A DNA stretch of 39,010 nucleotides, taken from the IMG/VR virus record IMGVR_UViG_3300038309_000064, positions 1 to 39,010 of that record. One strand, written 5' to 3'. This document shows positions 3,443-34,364 of this stretch, in pieces. Positions within the stretch are counted from its first letter, which is position 1, and every line of letters starts with the position of its first letter. A model generated the notes under the pieces. The model was not told the origin of the DNA and searched no databases. It was given only the letters and a program-made list of their open reading frames with translations. The translations under genes were made by a program, and so were the position numbers. This stretch comes from a virus.

Positions 3443-3928
3443 TTACTGACCCCTCTTATTTTGCTTCTTCAGTTTTTTATATATCCTTTCTTGATTAATA
3501 TATTCTTCATTAGTTCTTCCCCTTTTTCCGCTTCTTCCTTTTTCTCTTGTTATGGGAAGCTCTAATACTGTCTCTATTCTTTGATATTTAACTATCGAAT
3601 ATGGCAATATTGCTTTTAATAATGTTCTTGCTTTCTCTCCAGTTATTTGATATCTATGGCAAGGTCTCCATTTGCTATATTTAGATTCTTTTCTAACTAT
3701 ATATGAACATCCCGCTCCGATAGTATTTTTTAACCATTCAATTATATTTATATCAGTATTAACAATAATAAAAACCATTTGATAATCCTTTAAAAACATT
3801 TTAGATACAGAGTCCTTTTTTGATATTGTTACACAGCCATCTGCATCAAAAAATCCTGCTATATATGCTTTTTGCTCCTTACTTAGTTTGTTTATTTTTC
3901 CCTGTTTCATATTTTCTAAATAAAGCAT
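3443..3928 (-). CDS. LAGLIDADG homing endonuclease, single-motif
   Basis: 161 aa if read from the ATG at 3928, 155 aa from the ATG at 3910; the latter follows an A-rich stretch and lies just beyond the portal stop at 3916, so I prefer it. One LAGLIDADG motif (AYIAGFFDADGCV) near the N-terminus implies a homodimer. Later segments (VFIIVNTDINIIEWLK, RYQITGEKARTLLKAI, YSIVKYQRIETVLEL) follow the family pattern. It is a free-standing gene between portal and protease: both neighbours are full length, so it is neither an intron ORF nor an intein. It probably cleaves a related phage genome near this junction to spread. Confidence 0.92.
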   Translation of the reverse strand: MLYLENMKQGKINKLSKEQKAYIAGFFDADGCVTISKKDSVSKMFLKDYQMVFIIVNTDINIIEWLKNTIGAGCSYIVRKESKYSKWRPCHRYQITGEKARTLLKAILPYSIVKYQRIETVLELPITREKGRSGKRGRTNEEYINQERIYKKLKKQNKRGQ

Positions 3929-9280: not shown

Positions 9281-10066
9281 TCATATTGCTATATTTAAAC
9301 TATTTTCTCGGTATCTTATAATTTTATCTCCCTCAATTTCAACGCAATTTCCATTCTGATATTTAAATTTTTTAGCCCCTAAATCCTCTAATGCTATTTT
9401 CCAAAACTCATCTCTACCTTTTAATGCCTGATAATTTCTAGAGTTATTTTTCTTGTTATCTATGATTTTAACTTCGGGAGTAAACACTATCTTATTTTTA
9501 ACCCTGTAGAAGAAGTGCTGGTGTTCTCTTAATTTTAATTCATTATGCCATAAAGTATCTTCAAAAACAATTTCTTTTGCTAGGAAAAAATTTAATACGC
9601 ACCCAGTTTTTTTAAATTTAATTCCATTATAAAATTCATATAAATCCCAATCCGGTATCTGATAAATAGTTTCAAATTCTTTTTTAAAATAATGCTCAAA
9701 TTTTAATCTTCTGCCATCTTTTATCACTGCTCCCCCGATAATATCCCCAACATCTACTAATGCCAACATTTTTTCGATAACTGTATCATGAGTAAAAAGA
9801 AAATCATCCTCTAATATTAATTTATATGGCTGTTTTGTTTCTTTAACTAAAACATTTCTAGCAAAAGATAATCCGCAATCATAAGGCAATGGGAAAACTC
9901 TCAAATTCCTATCTTTCCATTTCATGTAAAACTCTGTATTAATGTCCTTGCTTTGATCCGCTATTGTTATTATCGCATTCGGATAATATACAAAAATGCT
10001 ATCTAGAAGTTCTTCCAATAGATTATACCGATCCATTGTCGTAATTAGAAAATCAACTTTTTCCAT
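9281..10066 (-). CDS. glycosyltransferase, GT-A fold, beta-GalNAc-transferase-like
   Basis: 261 aa. GT2-like fold: LITTMDRYNLLEELLDSI (7-24), then PYDCGLSFARN (61-71) and the metal/nucleotide motif EDDF (86-89), then WHNELKLREHQHFFYRV (about 193-209) where the Glu-His pair matches the catalytic-base region of beta-1,4-GalNAc transferases (B4GALNT/GT12-like, EDDF or DDDF plus GEHxxFF). No signal or membrane segment. It is the last of four sugar genes; an HNH gene separates it from the epimerase. Together they suggest building of a GalNAc/Gal-containing glycan; acceptor unknown (virion protein, host surface or DNA). Confidence 0.82.
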   Translation of the reverse strand: MEKVDFLITTMDRYNLLEELLDSIFVYYPNAIITIADQSKDINTEFYMKWKDRNLRVFPLPYDCGLSFARNVLVKETKQPYKLILEDDFLFTHDTVIEKMLALVDVGDIIGGAVIKDGRRLKFEHYFKKEFETIYQIPDWDLYEFYNGIKFKKTGCVLNFFLAKEIVFEDTLWHNELKLREHQHFFYRVKNKIVFTPEVKIIDNKKNNSRNYQALKGRDEFWKIALEDLGAKKFKYQNGNCVEIEGDKIIRYRENSLNIAI

Positions 10067-10102
10067 TGCATTTTTCTTTAATATATTTAATTACATCTAT
10101 TC

Positions 10103-10564
10103 TTAAATATGTTTCCACCTTTGTTTTTTTATAATCATTCTTATGGTGTTATAATTGACACCATATTCTTTTCCCAACATTGTTAATTCTCCGTGTTTTC
10201 CTTTGTATTTTTTTCTTATTTCAATAACTTTTTCTTCTGTCAATTTTGATTGATGATTTTTTATGCCATGTTGGTTATGGTTTCTTTTCCTTAAATATAT
10301 ATCCCTAATATTATCCTTTTGTGTTCCCAAGTATAAATGGTCTGGGTTGCTACAAATAGGATTATCACATTTATGTAAAACTAATTTTCCTTTTGGTATT
10401 TTTCCTTTATAAATCCTCCAAGAAACTCTATGGGCTCTATCCATTTTTCCTCCTGACTTCATAAACCCATAACCAAAATGAGCTTTAGCACCATTCCACC
10501 CCCAACACCCTTTTTTCCTTATAACGTGGCGGTTAAATATTATTTTTTCATTTGTGATTGACAT
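10103..10564 (-). CDS. HNH homing endonuclease
   Basis: 153 aa. N-terminal CWGWNGAKAHFGYGFMKSGG and HRVSWRIYKGKIPKGKLVLH, then HKCDNPICSNPDHLYLGTQ (residues about 64-82) form the HNH_3-type nuclease; DNIRD follows as in relatives. The C-terminal 45 residues look like a DNA-binding helix-turn-helix (LTMLGKEYGVNYNTIRMI). It overlaps the end of the epimerase gene by 25 bases in another frame and splits the sugar cassette. The epimerase ends in unstructured KNKCQSQMKK, so insertion may have replaced its original last residues. Confidence 0.88.
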   Translation of the reverse strand: MSITNEKIIFNRHVIRKKGCWGWNGAKAHFGYGFMKSGGKMDRAHRVSWRIYKGKIPKGKLVLHKCDNPICSNPDHLYLGTQKDNIRDIYLRKRNHNQHGIKNHQSKLTEEKVIEIRKKYKGKHGELTMLGKEYGVNYNTIRMIIKKQRWKHI

Positions 10565-11295
10565 TTATTTTTTATATAGCTTATTACATCAATTTCAGGA
10601 TACCAACTATGTTTTATTTTGTCAATCTTTGGCGTGGTATTTCTTAAAATAACGCTTCCTTTATCTCCATTCCTTTTTGGAAGATATTCTATTTTCTTTC
10701 CGGTCGCTTTCGCTATTTCATTAATTGATATTCCCTTACCGCTTCCGCATTCATAGGTTCCCATATCCCAATTTTTCGCTAGAATTAAACAATTTACTAT
10801 ATCATCAATATTCACAAAATCTCTTTTTTGAGTGCCATCTCCGAAAATGCAACACTTTTTATTTCTTATAAATGTATCGACTACTCCCTTTGGCTTATCC
10901 CCATAAATCGAACTTAATCTTAAAATCACATAATCATTGCAAAGCATTTTTATATACTTTTCGCATGCTTGCTTACTTAATCCATAAGGACTATTCGCTT
11001 TTCCAATCGCTGCCCCGGATGTGGTAAATATAAGTTTAGCATTATATTTATTGGCTATTTCTATCGCTTTTAATGTTCCTAAAATATTTTGTCTAGCATC
11101 ATTTATTGGATCATCTACTGATTCAGGAACTCCACTTTGAGCGGCTAAATGATATAAATAAAATGGCTTTTCTTTAAAATCATAACTTAAAATATCTCTG
11201 CCGATTTTTAAATCAATTTCAAATATTGTATCATCTATCGCTTTGACTAATTTAGATCCAATGTACCCTCGCGATCCGCTAATTAGATATATCAT
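10540..11295 (-). CDS. NAD-dependent epimerase/dehydratase (GalE-like extended SDR)
   Basis: 251 aa. Rossmann motif GSRGYIG (7-13), substrate/NAD contacts HLAAQSG (49-55), catalytic TTSGA with Ser93 and YGLSK (Tyr104, Lys108), and KRDFVNIDDIV (157-167). It is short for a GalE-type protein (usually about 310-340 aa): the loop between the cofactor and substrate domains is trimmed. Likely reaction: C4 epimerisation of a UDP-sugar (Glc/Gal or GlcNAc/GalNAc), or another nucleotide-sugar conversion. Sitting next to a GT6 and two GT2-like transferases, it would supply their donor. Start overlaps the end of the GT6 gene by 17 bases; a GalE-like reductase such as RfbD is the alternative. Confidence 0.84.
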   Translation of the reverse strand: MIYLISGSRGYIGSKLVKAIDDTIFEIDLKIGRDILSYDFKEKPFYLYHLAAQSGVPESVDDPINDARQNILGTLKAIEIANKYNAKLIFTTSGAAIGKANSPYGLSKQACEKYIKMLCNDYVILRLSSIYGDKPKGVVDTFIRNKKCCIFGDGTQKRDFVNIDDIVNCLILAKNWDMGTYECGSGKGISINEIAKATGKKIEYLPKRNGDKGSVILRNTTPKIDKIKHSWYPEIDVISYIKNKCQSQMKK

Positions 11296-12079
11296 CTCTA
11301 GTTATATTATCCCAATTAATAACATAATCTTCCTTATTTATATTCATATTTCTCATTGCATCTTCTTTATAAACTTGTTTAAATTGCTTTTCATGGTGCA
11401 TGATAAACGGGATAAAATATTTATTTCCCTCCGGGCACATATAATTTGGAGGCAATACTAGCGTAGGTGGATTATCTATGAAGTATCTATTAACGTGGCT
11501 TTCATCTCCCCAAATAGCCCTAATTCCATTTTCAATATCAATTCTAATATTGGCAGAAACTGTCTCAAGCATTTCTTTAAAATGTTCTATTCTCCCACCA
11601 ACAAAACCGCATGCATAATATTGATCTCCCTCATCACTTGAAACATAAGCGGTTGATTCAATTCTTTTTTCATAATTAAAATCCTTTCTTCTTCTCATTA
11701 TATTTCTATGCAATGTAGCAACTCGATAACTTAATATTTCATTTGTTATCGGAACCATTATCTCAGCCTCAGAATCTAAAATAAATAAATAGTTTTCCTT
11801 ATAAATGCTTTTATAATGATTTAATAATTCAAATCTTAATAATGGCATTTTAGGCCATCCTAAATGCGGAGTGTAAATTGTAGTAATCTCATTATAGCTT
11901 TCATAATTTTCGGGACTATCAGTAAATAAATAAATGTGAGCAGGAAACTTATCTTTTACACTAGAAATTAATCTTGGTATAAATTGATTATATTCTCCAG
12001 TCGCTACCACTATTAATCCAACGTTATGAAATCCTGATCTTTTTGAAACTACCAGATGTTTATTGATTTTATTTTCCAT
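11279..12079 (-). CDS. GT6 family glycosyltransferase (ABO blood-group-like)
   Basis: 266 aa, GT-A fold retaining transferase. GT6 signatures in order: YLFTD (50-54), GWPKMPLLRFE (74-84), LDSEAEI (101-107) at the DxD site, ATLH (His124), DEGDQYYACGFVGG (149-162), NGIRAIWGDESHVNRYF (184-200) with the catalytic Glu193, PTLVLPPNY (205-213) and MRN near the C-terminus. Human ABO enzymes have DVD at the metal site; here it is D-S-E; bacterial GT6 enzymes mostly have NxN. The residues equivalent to ABO 266 and 268 are Ala and Gly; Gly at 268 is found in GalNAc-using enzymes. No stem or membrane helix. GT6 is rare in phages. Overlaps the upstream GT gene by 31 bases and the epimerase by 17. Confidence 0.92.
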   Translation of the reverse strand: MENKINKHLVVSKRSGFHNVGLIVVATGEYNQFIPRLISSVKDKFPAHIYLFTDSPENYESYNEITTIYTPHLGWPKMPLLRFELLNHYKSIYKENYLFILDSEAEIMVPITNEILSYRVATLHRNIMRRRKDFNYEKRIESTAYVSSDEGDQYYACGFVGGRIEHFKEMLETVSANIRIDIENGIRAIWGDESHVNRYFIDNPPTLVLPPNYMCPEGNKYFIPFIMHHEKQFKQVYKEDAMRNMNINKEDYVINWDNITRDDISN

Positions 12080-12807
12080 TTTTTTAATAATTTATCATGA
12101 TTAGGGAAATGTCTAAATCTTTTTTTCTTATAATAATCAGGCATTTCTATGTCATGTTTTAAATGATAAACCTCGCTATCCGGCGTATAAAAAACATTTA
12201 ATCCTAACTTCTTAGCCTCTAAAAAGAAATCAGGATGTAGCCCATCTCCGAAGCTATATCTTTCATCAAACCATAATCCCTTTTCTGTAAAAGCTTTTCT
12301 CTTAGCGATCCAGCAATTAGGAACTATATCTACTTTTCTGAATTTCATTCCGTTATGATCAATCCATTCGCTAGTAGGCTCAACGAAATCTATTTTATCG
12401 GGATAGATTTTAGCTTCATATATAAAAGGCGAAACTACTTTTTTTGAAACTACCTTAATTCCAACGATATCAGCATTATTTTTTTCCATAAAATCAATCA
12501 CTTCATCCAATTTTATTTTTTCCGAAATTATGAAATCATCGTCAAAGTGTAAAATATAATCTCCATTTCCATAAGCTATCATGCAATTTTTAGTTTTAGC
12601 AAGTGTAGTATCAAATCCGAAGTCAAACCAATTAAAATTATTGTAATGTTCTCTGAGTTTTATTTTCTCTATCGGCCTAGTGTCGCCTATAAATACATCA
12701 ATTAAGCCCCTTGACCTATAAGCATTTAATGCACATAGCGTTTCTTCTAGCATCTCATCTCTAAAAAAAGTTGTGTGTAGAATTACATCTACGCTTTTTA
12801 TATCCAT
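12049..12807 (-). CDS. glycosyltransferase family 2-like
   Basis: 252 aa, soluble GT-A fold. Strand and donor motif VDVILHTTFFRDEMLEETL (6-24), DVFIGDTRP (37-45), FDTTLAKTKN (65-74), and the metal-binding HFDDDF (87-92). The C-terminal part has NCWIAKRKAF, FGDGLHPDFFLEAKKLGL and EVYHLKHD, similar to GT2/GT27 and LicD-linked polypeptide sugar enzymes that place an E/D-x-FF near the acceptor. First of four sugar genes. A 13-codon upstream ORF (12798-12839) overlaps its start codon, and a hairpin (12846-12875) precedes it, so its expression may be controlled at leader level. Confidence 0.85.
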   Translation of the reverse strand: MDIKSVDVILHTTFFRDEMLEETLCALNAYRSRGLIDVFIGDTRPIEKIKLREHYNNFNWFDFGFDTTLAKTKNCMIAYGNGDYILHFDDDFIISEKIKLDEVIDFMEKNNADIVGIKVVSKKVVSPFIYEAKIYPDKIDFVEPTSEWIDHNGMKFRKVDIVPNCWIAKRKAFTEKGLWFDERYSFGDGLHPDFFLEAKKLGLNVFYTPDSEVYHLKHDIEMPDYYKKKRFRHFPNHDKLLKKWKIKSINIW

Positions 12808-17918: not shown

Positions 17919-18353
17919 TTACTTCTTTTCGATTAGTTTAATTCCATGGCATTTACCATGAATAGATCCGTGCTTTTTTCTACTTATTACTTTTAAATTT
18001 TCTATTCTATTGTCAAGCTTATCACCGTTTATATGATGTATTGTTTCATTATATTTTAATTTTCTATGTAAATGTTTTTCCATTATTACTCTATGCTCAA
18101 GCTTAATCTTTCCATTTATATACATTGCCCTATATCCTTGCGAATTTATAGTTCCCCCTTTATATAATTTATTACTTATCTTTTTTTTAGTTTCTTCGCT
18201 ATGCTTTTTACCCTTTCTTTTCTCAGACATCTTTTTTTTAGTTTCTTCGCTATGCTTTTTACCATTCATCCATTTTCCAAATCCTTTTTCTTTGGCAATA
18301 ATAGACATCTTCTTTTTTATTTTTTCTGTTCTTTTATATACTCCAGAAGTCAT
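17919..18353 (-). CDS. NUMOD3/HNH homing endonuclease
   Basis: 144 aa. Two NUMOD3 DNA-binding repeats (GKKHSEETKKKMSEKRK and GKKHSEETKKKISNK, 17 residues apart) precede an HNH nuclease: LEHRVIMEKHLHRKL, TIHHINGDKLDNRIENL (residues about 104-120). The repeated DNA (18181-18212 and 18232-18263) is nearly identical, hinting at recent duplication. Free-standing in the early operon between two unknown genes; no intron ends seen. Confidence 0.9.
   Translation of the reverse strand: MTSGVYKRTEKIKKKMSIIAKEKGFGKWMNGKKHSEETKKKMSEKRKGKKHSEETKKKISNKLYKGGTINSQGYRAMYINGKIKLEHRVIMEKHLHRKLKYNETIHHINGDKLDNRIENLKVISRKKHGSIHGKCHGIKLIEKK
18181..18263. repeat. 51-bp-spaced direct repeat (NUMOD3 units)
   Basis: A 32-base identical block starts at 18181 and again at 18232 (offset 51 = 17 codons), inside the endonuclease gene. 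Identity including silent sites points to recent tandem duplication of the DNA-binding unit. Confidence 0.85.
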
Positions 18354-20906: not shown

Positions 20907-21248
20907 TTAATTTAGTTGATTATGAGAATTTTCTAAGGCTATCTCTTTGTCAATATCTGATATTTTTTTATTTTTTAATCTATATTCTATGTTTTTTTTA
21001 TCTCCAGCAAACAATTTCCATTCGCCTTGCACAAATATCCTTGTTAAGTCCTTACTCATTAAATCTCCTCCACAATGTGCTTCAGTTTCAGCGTCTCCAA
21101 TACTTTCAACTGAACTTAGATTTATCATATCTCCGCTTTTTAATCCTATTAAGCCAGTTTTACCATTAGCTATAAGAATTTGTAGTTTCTTAAATTCCTC
21201 ATCGGAAATTAAAAACTCTGTTTTACTCATCATTTTTATTGATTTCAT
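20907..21248 (-). CDS. 113-aa unknown protein
   Basis: ATG at 21248 overlaps the organizer stop (ATGA); the ATG at M7 is another start. Sequence FLISDEEFKKLQILIANGKT, GLKSGDMINLSSVESIGDAE and TRIFVQGEWKLFAGDKKNIE suggests a small alpha/beta fold; several phage proteins of replication regions have this 'lI.ng..gl..l.sG..inl.si.sI' pattern, function unknown. Co-translated with the replisome organizer. Confidence 0.52.
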   Translation of the reverse strand: MKSIKMMSKTEFLISDEEFKKLQILIANGKTGLIGLKSGDMINLSSVESIGDAETEAHCGGDLMSKDLTRIFVQGEWKLFAGDKKNIEYRLKNKKISDIDKEIALENSHNQLN

Positions 21249-21949
21249 AATTGTACAAAATTAGATTTATTATTCTTTTGATTATCAAAATATATTTTAA
21301 ATTGAGCCAGCTTCTCTTTCATTTGGTAAGGGGTAGTAGCGACTGGGGCATAAGGCTTTCCTTGAACTGCTACCACTGCTTCAGCCATTCTAATAACATT
21401 TTCTTTTTTATATTTTTTAATTAACCATTCGCAAGCAGATCTGCTTGTCTTATTTTGGAAATTAAGTGCTGGATTTATCTTATAAAATATATTCATAATT
21501 TCATTAACTCCAGCGATCGCTAGATCGCTAGTATTTATATTCTTATCATTCTTATTCTTCTTATCATTCTTGTTTGTGTTATTTTGATGTTCTTTTGATG
21601 TTACTTTGATGTTATTTTGATGTTCTTTTTCTTGGTAGTCTTTCCAATTTATCACCGTAATAAGCCTAAATTTATTAGTTTTTTGTTGTTCTATTTGATG
21701 TTCTTTTTCGAAAATTTTTAATATTTTTTCGATAGTCGATTCATTAATGCCTGTTTCATCGCTTAATTTCTTTCTCCCGGTAATAAATTGCCCCTCTTTT
21801 ATTACTATAATTTCATTATTCCACATAAATTCGGATCCTTTATGATTTGCTTTTAATAGAATATGCAACCATAAATGGATATATTTAGAATTCTTATAAT
21901 ATCCTTTTTCAATTATTCGCCTATGTATTTTTACCCAACCATTATTCAT
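21245..21949 (-). CDS. replisome organizer / replication initiator (lambda O-like role)
   Basis: 234 aa. Residues 1-105 are the phage replisome-organizer winged helix (GWVKIHRRIIEKGYY, then ILLKANHK, IKEGQFITGRKKLSDETGI, RLITVINWKDYQ). Residues about 108-142 are a low-complexity Asn/Lys linker encoding four DNA iterons, and 145-225 a DnaD-like helical tail (NEIMNIFYKINPALNF, SACEWLIKKY, EAVVAVQGKPYAP). Such proteins bind the origin and load the host helicase. No helicase loader is evident in the window. First gene after the HNH in the early operon. Confidence 0.82.
   Translation of the reverse strand: MNNGWVKIHRRIIEKGYYKNSKYIHLWLHILLKANHKGSEFMWNNEIIVIKEGQFITGRKKLSDETGINESTIEKILKIFEKEHQIEQQKTNKFRLITVINWKDYQEKEHQNNIKVTSKEHQNNTNKNDKKNKNDKNINTSDLAIAGVNEIMNIFYKINPALNFQNKTSRSACEWLIKKYKKENVIRMAEAVVAVQGKPYAPVATTPYQMKEKLAQFKIYFDNQKNNKSNFVQL
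21541..21624. other. candidate replication origin: four 11-bp iterons plus pyrimidine tract
   Basis: TTTGATGTT occurs at 21583, 21594, 21605 and 21616, exactly 11 bp apart, and once more at 21694. The period is not a multiple of three, so the repeat is selected at DNA level, not as a peptide repeat. It adjoins a tract (21541-21571) that is almost all pyrimidine on the plus strand. Iterons inside the initiator gene next to a strand-biased AT-rich tract match lambda ori. Confidence 0.65.
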
Positions 21950-21979: not shown

Positions 21980-22375
21980 TCAAATAATTTCTAAAAGTGT
22001 GTTACTCTTTCCCATATTGCAGTCCTTACAAGCCGTTTTGAAATTATCCATAATGTTTTTTCCACCCTTCGACCTTGGGTGTATATGATCTATTTCTAAA
22101 ATTACATCAGGAGCTTTTCTTCCACAATATTGACAGGTAAATGCATCTCTCTTTAGGATATCGAATCTTAATTTTAGTGGTTTATGATTTTTTCTAGGTC
22201 GATATTTGTAGGTAAATTTTCTTAACTTTCCTCTCTCTTTTTCGCACTCTTTGCACCTGTAAGAATATCCCAGCCTTCCATTTTTACTTTTAATAAATGT
22301 TTTGTCATTAAGTGGTAATATTCTTTTACAAATATAACACCTCCTTTTTCCTAATTTGTATAAATGCTTCCCCAT
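21980..22375 (-). CDS. HNH endonuclease
   Basis: 131 aa. N-terminal zinc module CYICKRILPL...YRCKECEKERGK (residues about 13-47), then the HNH core: FTCQYCGRKAPDVILEIDHI followed by HPRSKGGKNIMDNF and ACKDCNMGK. Typical free-standing phage HNH of the group with N-terminal C4 ribbon. It is the first gene behind the early promoter and structured leader. It may be a homing enzyme, or a domestic nickase helping replication or packaging; the position near the origin allows either. Confidence 0.9.
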   Translation of the reverse strand: MGKHLYKLGKRRCYICKRILPLNDKTFIKSKNGRLGYSYRCKECEKERGKLRKFTYKYRPRKNHKPLKLRFDILKRDAFTCQYCGRKAPDVILEIDHIHPRSKGGKNIMDNFKTACKDCNMGKSNTLLEII

Positions 22376-29786: not shown

Positions 29787-32700
29787 TTATTTAATTAACT
29801 TATCTTTTACTTCATCATCCAATATTTTTAATGCGTCGTCATCTATCTTTGATCTAAGCTTTGGCTTAATAAAGCCTTTTTTATTATGCATTGGCAATAA
29901 TTCTTCCCCTCTCAATTTTCTTCTTATGTTCTCACTTCTGATCTTATCATTTAAATTCTGAGTTTCCCCGTATAATTCCGGATATAAATATCCTTTAATA
30001 TTTTTTTCAACCTCTACCTCCATTGGCTTTGCTAAAGCATAGGGATCCTTTCTCACCCCATAAATTATCCAGCTGAATTCACAATCAACGTTAGAAGCAA
30101 CTTCAACTTTGTTATTCTGGTATTCTTTACTTACCCATAGATTAGCATTTATTCCTATTGGAGTTAAATTATATTCAATATTTGTATTTAATGCTTCAAA
30201 ATAATCTGGCAATTCTATTGTAAATTTACCATTTACTGTCAAACCCCTACCTTTATAAATGTTTAACCTCTCAGGGGCTTCAACAAAAGAGTGAAACAGA
30301 AAATGCGTTTCTGGTTTTAGTGGATGATCTATTCTAAACGATCCTCCTCCCTTAGATAAATCGCCTCCCACGTGAACATCATCTGCGAAATAGGCATCCT
30401 TTCCAGTTGTTAAAGTTAAAACATTTCCGCTGTCCTCATCGATATAAAACTGATCTCCAGAATCTTGCTTATTATAATTAATTATAACAGTATCGGCTGC
30501 ATTAATATACCAATCACTGCTACACGTAAAATACATTGCGTTAGATGTATAATATATATCATTTGCTTCTAAATATATAAAATCACCTGCCCCTGTCGCA
30601 CTTAAATAAATAGAATTATCTGCATCAATTCTTAAATCTCCGCTAGAATCTGCATAAGCGTATGCAACCGTATCAGTGCCATAAATCCAAGCAATTCTTC
30701 TGTTTGTAGCATCGAGTCTTAAATTAGATCCAGTTGTGGTATTAACAAGATTTAATGTTCCCATGTAAGCAGTAATCGCTGATAGCGTGCTTACACTCAT
30801 TCTATCGGCTGTTATAGTGCTTGCCGCTATTTCATTTGCCGTAATAGTGTTAGCCGCAATTTCGTTTGCAGTTATCGAATTAGCCGCGATATTATCTGCG
30901 ATAACCGATCTATCTGTAATATGAACCGATCCATCTAATTGGATTTTTTGCCCAAAGCTAACCGGAAATATTGAAGCCCCCTTAGTAGCGATTGCTGATT
31001 TTGTGGCATAACAAAGCGGTATTTTGCCTCCTCCAATTCCGTCCGAAAAAGTAGTTGAAATTTGCAATTCAGTTGTAGATGTAGCCGGATCGAAATAAAT
31101 TACATGATCCGCTGTTAGTGTTTCCGATGCATTTGCATCAATACTATAAACTGTTCCGTCCGAAGTTCTTATTGATCCAGAACTCCATTGGATCGTTTCA
31201 TCATCAATCGCGGTAAATTCTATGTTCTGTAAAACTCCTTGATCACCTAACGCTGGAGTAATATCAGGATTATCTGCCGCCTGCTTAAATAAGTCCTCTA
31301 TCTTTCCTAATCTTCTAGTAGTAGCTTTTACTTCATAAACAAACCTTGTTTCGCTTTCTGCTTTAAAATTTACTGTTTCAATATTTACTGTTTCATTTAT
31401 TCCCCTTATTGCACTAACTATATCTATTTGCTGTCCCGAGAATAATCCATTCTTTTTTGTTTGAAAACTTATAATTTTTATTGGATCCTTATATGCCGAT
31501 AAAATAGCATTAGCTTTTTGAGTAGCTTCATTTGTCGCAGTAACATCATTATCAATTTCGAAATACTGTCTTAATCCATAACTAGAAATAGATGTGGCAT
31601 CAGTAACATTAACTGCCGCTACTCCCTTTCCTTTAACAGTAACATCATTTCTTAATTGCGTGTAATCTTCGCTAACCTCGACACTAGAAAAAATAGCATT
31701 TCCGTTAGTATCGTTTATATCGAAAGGTGCGGAAATAACACTATCAGAAAAAAAATATATTTCTTTATCCGGGCTAACGTACCAATTTTTATTGGATAAC
31801 TGAGCAAGTCTATCTAATGCAGATGAAACAGAAATATTATCAAAAACAACTCTAGCTATATTCGTAGTATCGGAAACGTGAGTTGTCCCATCGTAAGATG
31901 ATAAATTAGCATCTGTAAAAATATCCTCTATTATTGCCTCGACTGTTTCGTTGTTATATTCCGAATCAATTATAATATTTGCTAATTCTTCATTCCAATC
32001 TTTAAACTCCAGAAAATAAGACTCTTGGAATCCTTTCATTCTTTTCTCTATGCTTATTAACAACCCCTTGAAAATAGTTAGTCCGGTATCTTGTATTTCA
32101 ATTTCATCTCCGGCCTGCGGATTATATGATTTGCTCGATGATCTTATAATTTCAAAATTAGCAGTATCGGGATCGGAATAAAGATTATTCCTAACATGTA
32201 GCGTATCAAAAAGAACCTCGTCGCTTATATCAACAGAATTAACTAATATCACTACCTCCCGTTGCTGAACCGTAAAATCTGCATTAATTCCAGTTAGGCT
32301 AAATGATCCAGTCCCTAACTCAGCATTAAAATTTGTTTGAAAGTCAGCATTAACTCCGCTTAAATTAAAAACTCCCGTTCCTAAATCTTCTTTATAAGCA
32401 GTGTTATTATAAATCCAAGCTATTTCTGCATCTAATAAAACCCTATCCCAAATTGAAATATCGTCTATTTTAACAGATGGATATCCATAATCATTATGGC
32501 CTCTTTTTCCAATACAGACTACATCTCCAATCCCGCAAGATCCTGAACCAATAGTTGGGGCTCCGGTATCTCTACTAACTCCATCAACCCAAAGTTCCGT
32601 TATCGCGGCACCATCCCAAGTAGCCACTATATGGTGCCAGTTAGCAGTTCCTAATTCTACTTCATAATACATTACATCAGGAAAGGAAACACCATTTTTT

Positions 32701-34364
32701 GCATATCCCGCATAAACTCTTAATGTACCCGAGTTATATTGATATCCTATTTCTAGTCCATCATCATTAGCACCATCATTAGACGAATAAAAAACCCATT
32801 CCCCACTAGCTATTTCTGCATTACATTTTACCCACATTGAAATAGTTTGAGGATGTCTTCCTAATCCTAAATCATTTTCTATTGAAAGAAAATCAGTTGA
32901 GTTGGCTGATCCAAAATCAACCGCGTTGCTAAATTCCCCAGTATCAAAACTTAGTGTAGTTTCGTTAAAAGTATATTCCGAAGTTGGAGGGGTAAAATTA
33001 GATGTCCATTTTGCTTCTCCTTTAACTAATCTAAATTCATCAATCCATCCCTTAAACATATAGGAAGTTGAACCGGATCCATCGCCTCCAACACCAATCG
33101 CAAATGGTGCTGATAATGTAGGATAAGAAGTTAAGTCATTTGAAACTGTTTTTGTTTTTTTAACTCCATCTATGTAAAAATCAACTACTCCGGCATTACA
33201 AACTAATGCAACATGGTACCAAGTATCTTGCGATGGACTCCATGTAGTAACATTTGGCGTTTGCTCAATTCCCCCAACAAATCTAATAAAGTATAAATTA
33301 CCGTTAGTGTGCCAAGAGAAAAACATAAAATTGTTAGTATCTTCCCATTGTCCGCAAATTCCTTGTAGATGAGTAATATCGCTAAACCTAACCCATGTGT
33401 CTATTGTCCATGTTAGCCCCAAATCCCAATCAGCACTATCAGGAACTGTAACCCAGTCGCCAGTTCCATCAAGCAATAAAGAAGAAACTCCAAATTTATA
33501 TTGAGCAGTGTCTAGTTGTGCATTTCCGGCAAAAGTTAAGGTTTGGTTAGAAATTTCCGCCTTATATGCAGTTGCAGCATCCGCTCCGTTAAAATGAACC
33601 AATAATTTTGTAGAGTTATTACTTTCCTGTAAATCATAATTACCCAATTCATCGCTTCCGTCTGCCTCTAATCTGTAATAAGCTCTCAATCCTGATCCAT
33701 ATAAAGATATAACCTCTGCATCAGTTAAGGCTCTATCTAAAATAGCTACGTCATCTATAATTCCATCGGCATAATTTCCAGCATCATTTCTCCCTATATA
33801 AAAAACTCCATTAGAATCCGTCGATGAACCAGAAGCGGAAACAGTTGTTTTATTGCCATTAATAAAAATAGAAAGTTCTCCTGCTACTGAATCATATCTT
33901 CCCACTATGTGATACCAATTCCCTGCAATAAGCCCTTGCGTATAATTAACAAATTCATTAGTTGTTAGTCCATCTACATAAAACTGAACGTAAGTGGTAT
34001 CAAAGAAAATTTGCATTCCAGCGGTTCCAGCAACCTTAGCAAATAAAACTTGCAACGAAATTGATTCTGGTTTAAACCATAATGAAACTGTTCTACTGCC
34101 GCTAATTTCAAGGTTTGGGCAAGAGGCATCTGCTATTGAAAGGTATTGAGAACTTCCTGATTCAAAATCTCCTCCATTTCCAAACTTTCCAGTAGTAAAA
34201 GTAGGTGCTGTTCCTGTTAAAGTATATCCATTGCTTGAACTATCAGTTCCATCGCTTTCAAGCCTCCAATATCCCTGTAGATTTGCATCGTTAAATAAAT
34301 CTGATAAATAAAACTCAGTTGCTTCCGCAGTCAATAAAGCCGATTTGTATATTTCAACGCTCAT
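29787..34364 (-). CDS. LamG-tail hub fusion (tail tip/receptor protein)
   Basis: 1525 aa, the largest gene. Three concanavalin/LamG domains at about 25-220, 250-465 and 470-660 (YWRLESDGTD; TVSLWFKPE; WYHIVGRYDS; WTIDTWVRFSD; WYHVALVCNAGVVDFYIDG; WVYSS- and WHHIVATWDG-type motifs). Then twin 15-residue repeats (LGTGVFNLSGVNADF, LGTGSFSLTGINADF), a Tal/gp27-like hub (about 700-1100: ISDEVLFDTLHVRN, SALDRLAQLSNKNWYVSPDK), a repeat block ANEIAAN... (about 1170-1205) and a C-terminal carbohydrate-like part. Hub proteins form the tail tip; the LamG part likely binds host surface sugars. N-terminal position of three LamG on a hub is unusual. Confidence 0.82.
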   Translation of the reverse strand: MSVEIYKSALLTAEATEFYLSDLFNDANLQGYWRLESDGTDSSSNGYTLTGTAPTFTTGKFGNGGDFESGSSQYLSIADASCPNLEISGSRTVSLWFKPESISLQVLFAKVAGTAGMQIFFDTTYVQFYVDGLTTNEFVNYTQGLIAGNWYHIVGRYDSVAGELSIFINGNKTTVSASGSSTDSNGVFYIGRNDAGNYADGIIDDVAILDRALTDAEVISLYGSGLRAYYRLEADGSDELGNYDLQESNNSTKLLVHFNGADAATAYKAEISNQTLTFAGNAQLDTAQYKFGVSSLLLDGTGDWVTVPDSADWDLGLTWTIDTWVRFSDITHLQGICGQWEDTNNFMFFSWHTNGNLYFIRFVGGIEQTPNVTTWSPSQDTWYHVALVCNAGVVDFYIDGVKKTKTVSNDLTSYPTLSAPFAIGVGGDGSGSTSYMFKGWIDEFRLVKGEAKWTSNFTPPTSEYTFNETTLSFDTGEFSNAVDFGSANSTDFLSIENDLGLGRHPQTISMWVKCNAEIASGEWVFYSSNDGANDDGLEIGYQYNSGTLRVYAGYAKNGVSFPDVMYYEVELGTANWHHIVATWDGAAITELWVDGVSRDTGAPTIGSGSCGIGDVVCIGKRGHNDYGYPSVKIDDISIWDRVLLDAEIAWIYNNTAYKEDLGTGVFNLSGVNADFQTNFNAELGTGSFSLTGINADFTVQQREVVILVNSVDISDEVLFDTLHVRNNLYSDPDTANFEIIRSSSKSYNPQAGDEIEIQDTGLTIFKGLLISIEKRMKGFQESYFLEFKDWNEELANIIIDSEYNNETVEAIIEDIFTDANLSSYDGTTHVSDTTNIARVVFDNISVSSALDRLAQLSNKNWYVSPDKEIYFFSDSVISAPFDINDTNGNAIFSSVEVSEDYTQLRNDVTVKGKGVAAVNVTDATSISSYGLRQYFEIDNDVTATNEATQKANAILSAYKDPIKIISFQTKKNGLFSGQQIDIVSAIRGINETVNIETVNFKAESETRFVYEVKATTRRLGKIEDLFKQAADNPDITPALGDQGVLQNIEFTAIDDETIQWSSGSIRTSDGTVYSIDANASETLTADHVIYFDPATSTTELQISTTFSDGIGGGKIPLCYATKSAIATKGASIFPVSFGQKIQLDGSVHITDRSVIADNIAANSITANEIAANTITANEIAASTITADRMSVSTLSAITAYMGTLNLVNTTTGSNLRLDATNRRIAWIYGTDTVAYAYADSSGDLRIDADNSIYLSATGAGDFIYLEANDIYYTSNAMYFTCSSDWYINAADTVIINYNKQDSGDQFYIDEDSGNVLTLTTGKDAYFADDVHVGGDLSKGGGSFRIDHPLKPETHFLFHSFVEAPERLNIYKGRGLTVNGKFTIELPDYFEALNTNIEYNLTPIGINANLWVSKEYQNNKVEVASNVDCEFSWIIYGVRKDPYALAKPMEVEVEKNIKGYLYPELYGETQNLNDKIRSENIRRKLRGEELLPMHNKKGFIKPKLRSKIDDDALKILDDEVKDKLIK

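Follow-up and report, generated by a model that had tools for sequence, protein, structure and literature searches.

The initiator gene and its surroundings

The window, i.e. the whole stretch of DNA analysed here, is a viral record of 39,010 bp from IMG/VR, in which terminal repeats are absent. It encodes head, tail and terminase genes, and nearly all of its genes are located on the minus strand. Among them is a gene for a protein of 234 aa, which matches the profile PHROG 2514 (DnaD-like helicase loader) over residues 1-140 with an E-value of 3.9e-35, PHROG 345 ('replication initiation O-like') with E 2.4e-7, and the Pfam profile Phage_rep_org_N (PF09681) with E 1e-4 at 22.7 bits, slightly under the cut-off of 23.3. 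Via its N-terminal winged-helix domain, which matches the profile, the protein belongs to the PHROG 2514 / Phage_rep_org_N initiators. HTH_24 was matched at residues 60-86 (E 0.003), and the profile of the N-terminal domain aligns to the winged-helix-turn-helix of the FadR-family protein 8pqm (E 0.0025). The alignment with winged-helix regulators would place residues 70-81 in the recognition helix. The following features lie within the gene:

21245..21949, minus strand: initiator gene, 234 aa, DnaD-like / replisome-organizer type (PHROG 2514, PHROG 345 and Pfam profile matches)
21632..21949, minus strand: N-terminal winged-helix-turn-helix domain, residues 1-106 (HTH_24 and FadR-family profile alignment)
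21737-21739 and 21725-21727, minus strand: codons of residues 71 and 75 in the putative recognition helix
21694..21702, minus strand: fifth AACATCAAA, set apart from the array and probably due to the coding sequence (synonymous null p = 0.985)
21614..21624, minus strand: iteron 1, AACATCAAAAT
21603..21613, minus strand: iteron 2, AACATCAAAGT
21592..21602, minus strand: iteron 3, AACATCAAAAG
21581..21591, minus strand: iteron 4, AACATCAAAAT
21570..21580, minus strand: truncated fifth unit joined to the anchor, AACACAAACAA, which keeps the 11-bp register of the array
21536..21569, minus strand: purine-rich AT tract GAATGATAAGAAGAATAAGAATGATAAGAATATA, candidate unwinding element, with a family-wide AAG codon bias

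Among the window ORFs scanned, Pfam revealed no gene for a helicase, loader or polymerase, which gives a slight hint at a reliance on host replication enzymes. A turning point of the GC skew near 21.6 kb, which had been predicted for a replication origin at this place, is absent; the skew is negative throughout, as expected when nearly all genes are on one strand.

Several other features of the window were noted. Immediately upstream of the initiator gene lies an HNH endonuclease gene (21980-22375), and further HNH or LAGLIDADG ORFs are found at 3443-3928, 10103-10564 and 17919-18353, suggesting homing endonuclease traffic in this phage. Upstream of the HNH gene, the segment 22385-22483 contains two perfect interlocking stems, AAAGCCCAGAGT / ACTCTGGGCTTT and ATCATCGCAAAAT / ATTTTGCGATGAT, in the order A-B-A'-B', which could form a pseudoknot or alternative folds (minus-strand fold z = -4.7); Rfam gave no match to this element. 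In the region 9281-12807, two glycosyltransferases of family 2 are clustered with one of family 6 (E 5.8e-32) and with an NAD-dependent epimerase. Finally, a tail-region protein of 1,525 aa (29787-34364) contains a YQBQ-like part in addition to three Laminin_G_3 (concanavalin-like) stretches; it is perhaps a receptor-binding protein.

Tandem 11-bp repeats in the initiator linker

The motif TTTGATGTT (AACATCAAA on the coding strand) occurs in the linker of the initiator gene at positions 21583, 21594, 21605 and 21616, i.e. in exact 11-bp steps and at the coordinates given in the original prediction, and once more at 21694. These are the only copies on both strands of the 39,010-bp window, and all five are found inside the initiator ORF, whereas dinucleotide shuffles of the window contained 0.96 copies on average and reached five copies in 0 of 100 cases. 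After the N-terminal domain, the coding strand of the linker reads AACATCAAAAT AACATCAAAGT AACATCAAAAG AACATCAAAAT AACACAAACAA GAATGATAAGAAGAATAAGAATGATAAGAAT. Because 11 is no multiple of 3, the four tandem copies are translated in all three frames, namely as EHQ, NIK, TSK and EHQ. When the linker was recoded 5,000 times by redrawing its codons from phage genes without changing the peptide, at most two constant-spaced copies of any 9-mer appeared compared to the four observed. The repeats of the window go beyond what the peptide dictates, and the earlier statement that a period out of codon phase is not caused by protein repetition was borne out.

The isolated copy at 21694, originally counted as a fifth repeat, exists, but it lies within the coding sequence of the N-terminal domain, and when this part is recoded synonymously, the iteron is matched no less well (p = 0.985 in the window; combined p = 0.35 for the same upstream-copy test in 143 relatives). 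Hence, it was rejected as an iteron, being explained by the protein sequence, and isolated upstream copies in general were rejected as conserved iterons, since the synonymous null was not exceeded. The pyrimidine tract described beside the repeats is likewise present, with about 81% purine on the coding strand AAGAATGATAAGAAGAATAAGAATGATAAGAAT (rank 1.6% in the window), but it is not a pure pyrimidine run. The tract is AT-rich, yet it is not the least stable part of the gene in this window, which is AT-rich throughout.

Conservation of the 11-bp grid among relatives

A scan of IMG/VR for two AACATCAAA copies 11 bp apart returned 101 stretches, mostly linkers of related initiators, many of them from Staphylococcus aureus phages. 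Because such a scan selects for the motif itself, relatives were re-collected purely by N-terminal protein similarity, yielding 186 loci with 137 non-redundant genes. The DNA of each linker was then compared with synonymous recodings of the same linker, using z > 3 as threshold. An 11-bp period above this threshold was detected in the linkers of 95 of the 137 relatives, and 55 genes had 11 and 42 genes had 22 as their strongest linker period. The control regions gave 2 of 137 for codons 1-75 and 0 of 124 for the last 70 codons. Among 110 more distant genes from two further sets, 50 linkers showed the 11-bp period compared with none of the 110 N-terminal domains. The test was not passed by roughly one third of the first relatives and one half of the more distant genes. 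As positive controls, lambda O gave periods of 20 and 23 and gene 18 of phage L gave 11.

Units are more similar within a gene (identity 0.86) than between genes (0.65), i.e. each phage uses its own letters within a shared 11-bp grid. The consensus across genes is [AGT][AC]CANCAANYG, in which C3, A4, C6 and A7 are nearly invariant. Period, place, core (CAnCAA) and anchor are shared by genomes or phages of Bacteroidetes, Clostridium, Bacillus, Staphylococcus, Lactobacillus and Verrucomicrobia, covering 25-58% G+C. Relatives combining a conserved peptide with a scrambled 11-bp spacing, named earlier as a refutation, were not seen.

A minority of the distant initiators (among the held-out genes L394-L553) shows a linker period of 12 or 23 instead of 11 or 22; they perhaps form a sister class whose unit has another length.

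Array, anchor and purine tract form a composite element

In the window, the array ends in a truncated unit that is fused to the anchor CACAAACAA and followed by the purine-rich AT tract. The anchor is conserved across the initiator family, and the tract downstream of it consists of AAG/AAT/GAT-type triplets in the whole family. In 34 of 35 genes in which the array had been located independently of the anchor, the anchor lies in exact 11-bp register. Its codons are strongly biased compared to the same amino acids elsewhere in the same genes: Thr is encoded by ACA in 88 of 103 cases (0.37 elsewhere), Asn by AAC in 65 of 68 (0.37 elsewhere) and Lys by AAG in 53 of 63 (0.35 elsewhere). Similarly, Lys codons before AA are 219 AAG and 19 AAA in the tract but 110 AAG and 213 AAA outside of it. 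The silent sites of anchor and tract are thus constrained. Moreover, the least stable 50 bp of the gene start near the anchor in 95 of 141 relatives, where approximately 17 would be expected.

Searching IMG/VR with a pattern made of unit, anchor and tract start retrieved at least 97 newly found loci. Among the composite matches listed, 94 of 97 are within initiator ORFs, and the remaining three are cut by contig ends. On this ground, copies of the origin outside genes, for example in satellites, were rejected. Looser AACATCAAA pairs outside of initiators have neither anchor nor tract and look mostly like chance or intergenic matches, so that they were also discarded. Array, anchor and tract represent one fixed composite element. 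The comparison of iterons and silent sites among relatives, proposed earlier as a check, therefore came out in favour of an iteron array inside the initiator gene beside a strand-biased AT-rich tract: the spacing is kept while the letters change in concert, and silent sites, including those of the anchor, are constrained.

The putative recognition helix covaries with the last base of the unit

Among 143 non-redundant genes, residue 75 of the initiator and base 11 of the unit form the residue-base pair with the highest mutual information (z 8.4). The combinations were Arg-G in 82 genes, Thr-A in 19, Asp or Glu with C in 7, and Lys, Asn or Ser with T in 9. The gene-by-gene Fisher values for residue-base association treat relatives as independent and ignore shared ancestry. 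On the tree, changes of base 11 coincided with changes of residue 75 on 10 shared branches of 24 and 27 (p = 9e-6) and with those of residue 71 on 14 shared branches of 47 (p = 7.5e-6); these tests rest on one approximate tree, and with about 680 residue-base pairs examined the corrected p is near 0.006. Arg75 is encoded by all six Arg codons, hence, the link between residue 75 and base 11 does not originate from a repeat at the DNA level. Residues 83 and 87 were also associated with base 2, but this was set aside because both are encoded in iteron-like DNA.

Within genes carrying Thr75, residue 71 decides about base 11 (Gln with A in 17 genes, Arg with G in 6). A rule made of both residues fits 119 of 123 genes, and 37 of 41 if the common Arg75 type is excluded. 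It was applied to held-out genes that were less than 80% identical to any gene used earlier. Among those with Thr75, all 12 genes with Gln71 had A, and 4 of the 5 genes with Arg71 had G, for which a chance of about 0.002 was calculated from the counts. For held-out genes with residues other than Thr75 the rule was not confirmed, and all held-out genes together fit in 19 of 26 cases; the misfits are mostly genes whose detected array is out of the family phase. A generic residue-base rule in the distant sets A6 and A7 was dropped accordingly, only its Thr75 part being confirmed. The window itself has Lys75 and the bases T, T, G and T at position 11 of its units, which matches the rule and contributes one data point to the relation. 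Collectively, the repeats are under selection at the DNA level, and helix and repeat change together; the covariation supports the view that residues 71 and 75 may read the last base of each unit.

Comparison with known phage origins

The closest counterpart is the Salmonella phage L (Lederbergvirus), in which the linker of gene 18 contains repeats of the 11-bp sequence TGTCCAACGGA that have already been proposed as origin (PMC8022706). Its gene 18 product belongs to the same initiator family as the window protein (profile E 5e-29), the rotated repeat TCCAACGGATG fits the unit of the window family, and the array ends in TCCATAAACAATAA, which is near the anchor. Phage L differs from the window in having other letters, an interrupted array, and an unrelated host and genome; anchor, tract and helix-base relation are not described in the passage on its repeats (PMC8022706). 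With a gp18-like initiator whose linker carries 11-bp units in tandem, the window taken alone represents a new case of the phage L type of array.

Regarding the original label 'lambda-type', the general plan and the position in the gene agree. The lambda iterons are located in the middle of O, as far from its start codon as the iterons of the window are from theirs (nt 349 compared to 326), and an AT-rich tract adjoins them. The window correspondingly contains direct repeats under DNA-level selection in the coding sequence of the initiator and, adjacent to them, an AT-rich, strand-biased candidate tract. Lambda O and the window protein also have two PHROG profiles in common (345 and 2514). However, the lambda iterons are 18 bp long and spaced by 20-24 bp (annotated 20, 24, 23), in contrast to the tandem 11-bp units of the window, where the iteron type of the lambda O family (PHROG 277; 18 bp at 20-24 bp spacing) does not occur. 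The family profile found no match to lambda O, and hhalign with O alone gave E 0.033 at a probability of 1.5%, so that homology of the two initiators appears weak.

An origin within the initiator gene, as proposed here, is also known from the replisome organizer gp38 (G38P) of SPP1 with oriL; SPP1, however, possesses a second origin as well as a helicase and a loader of its own. For ORF20 of the Staphylococcus phage 80alpha, an origin embedded in the initiator gene was inferred from the failure to complement the deletion in trans (PMC5499656). ORF20 belongs to a different initiator family (profile E 20) without the 11-bp period; because of the different family, 80alpha was rejected as direct experimental support. 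In the open-access literature, subscription reviews aside, we found no description of the family-wide 11-bp grid, anchor, tract or residue-base relation, and an exact-sequence search of open-access papers with the tract and iteron letters gave the phage L paper as the only relevant one. The plan of lambda with one-turn iterons thus proves to be common.

Proposed function and alternative explanations

The array in the window is, in our view, very probably an iteron origin bound by the initiator and situated inside the initiator gene, following the lambda plan with shorter iterons of one helical turn. The N-terminal winged helix of the 234-aa protein would bind the 11-bp units, probably with one protein per unit, such that successive bound copies would sit one helical turn apart on the same face of the DNA. 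The array might thereby position the initiator at the in-register anchor CACAAACAA, which joins the array to the AT-rich tract, whose purines are on the coding strand. Once assembled, the initiators may melt this tract, and the rest of the protein could bring in the replicative helicase of the host. We infer each of these functions, i.e. origin activity, protein binding, tract melting and helicase loading; binding is supported by the helix-base covariation, whereas melting and helicase loading are deduced from lambda, SPP1, 80alpha and DnaD-type initiators.

The covariation indicates recognition by the protein but is silent on what comes after. The repeats could therefore also be an operator by which the initiator represses its own gene from within, with replication starting elsewhere, and many initiators also autoregulate. 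We consider this unlikely, because the array is coupled in register to the anchor and to an AT-rich tract where, in most relatives, the gene is least stable, and because it has a mid-gene position like the lambda origin and the inferred origin of 80alpha (PMC5499656).

Two further explanations were weighed. A disordered linker with many N, Q, H and K residues could make the underlying DNA appear repetitive, and the linker peptide is indeed similar across the family (EHQxNIKRTSxEHQ). Such a protein-level repeat does explain the isolated copy at 21694, but as main cause it is refuted, and we give it very little probability: the units run through three frames, synonymous recoding abolishes the repeats in the window and most relatives, and silent positions of the anchor are constrained. 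Neutral slippage, i.e. a recent expansion of a functionless 11-bp unit, could spread tandem units and explain their concerted change within a gene; nevertheless, it appears even less probable, since period, place, core and anchor recur across the groups named above at 25-58% G+C and base 11 tracks the recognition helix.

Beyond the proposed initiator-bound origin in the window, it might be speculated that a very widespread class of phage origins exists, to date mentioned only briefly in the literature, in which winged-helix initiators polymerise with one protein per turn on 11-bp iterons, the relation of residues 71 and 75 to base 11 sets the specificity, and the in-register anchor together with the triplet-like purine tract serves as a distinct signal for strand opening or helicase loading, in a role comparable to the bacterial DnaA-trio. 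We regard this generalisation as tentative and are rather more doubtful than confident about it. Phage origins are seldom mapped, and a single search with the signature of 11-bp units, CACAAACAA in register and purine tract points to the initiator, the strand order and the probable origin; it is applicable to phages of many phyla including uncultured ones. The helix-base relation would furthermore predict origin specificity and which co-infecting phages could share origins.

Pairs of AACATCAAA 11 bp apart were additionally observed in L065 and L084, within ORFs of 399 and 395 aa, where they are followed by a run of AACCATAA-like repeats. These ORFs have no sequence relation to the initiator family of the window and possibly encode another type of initiator.
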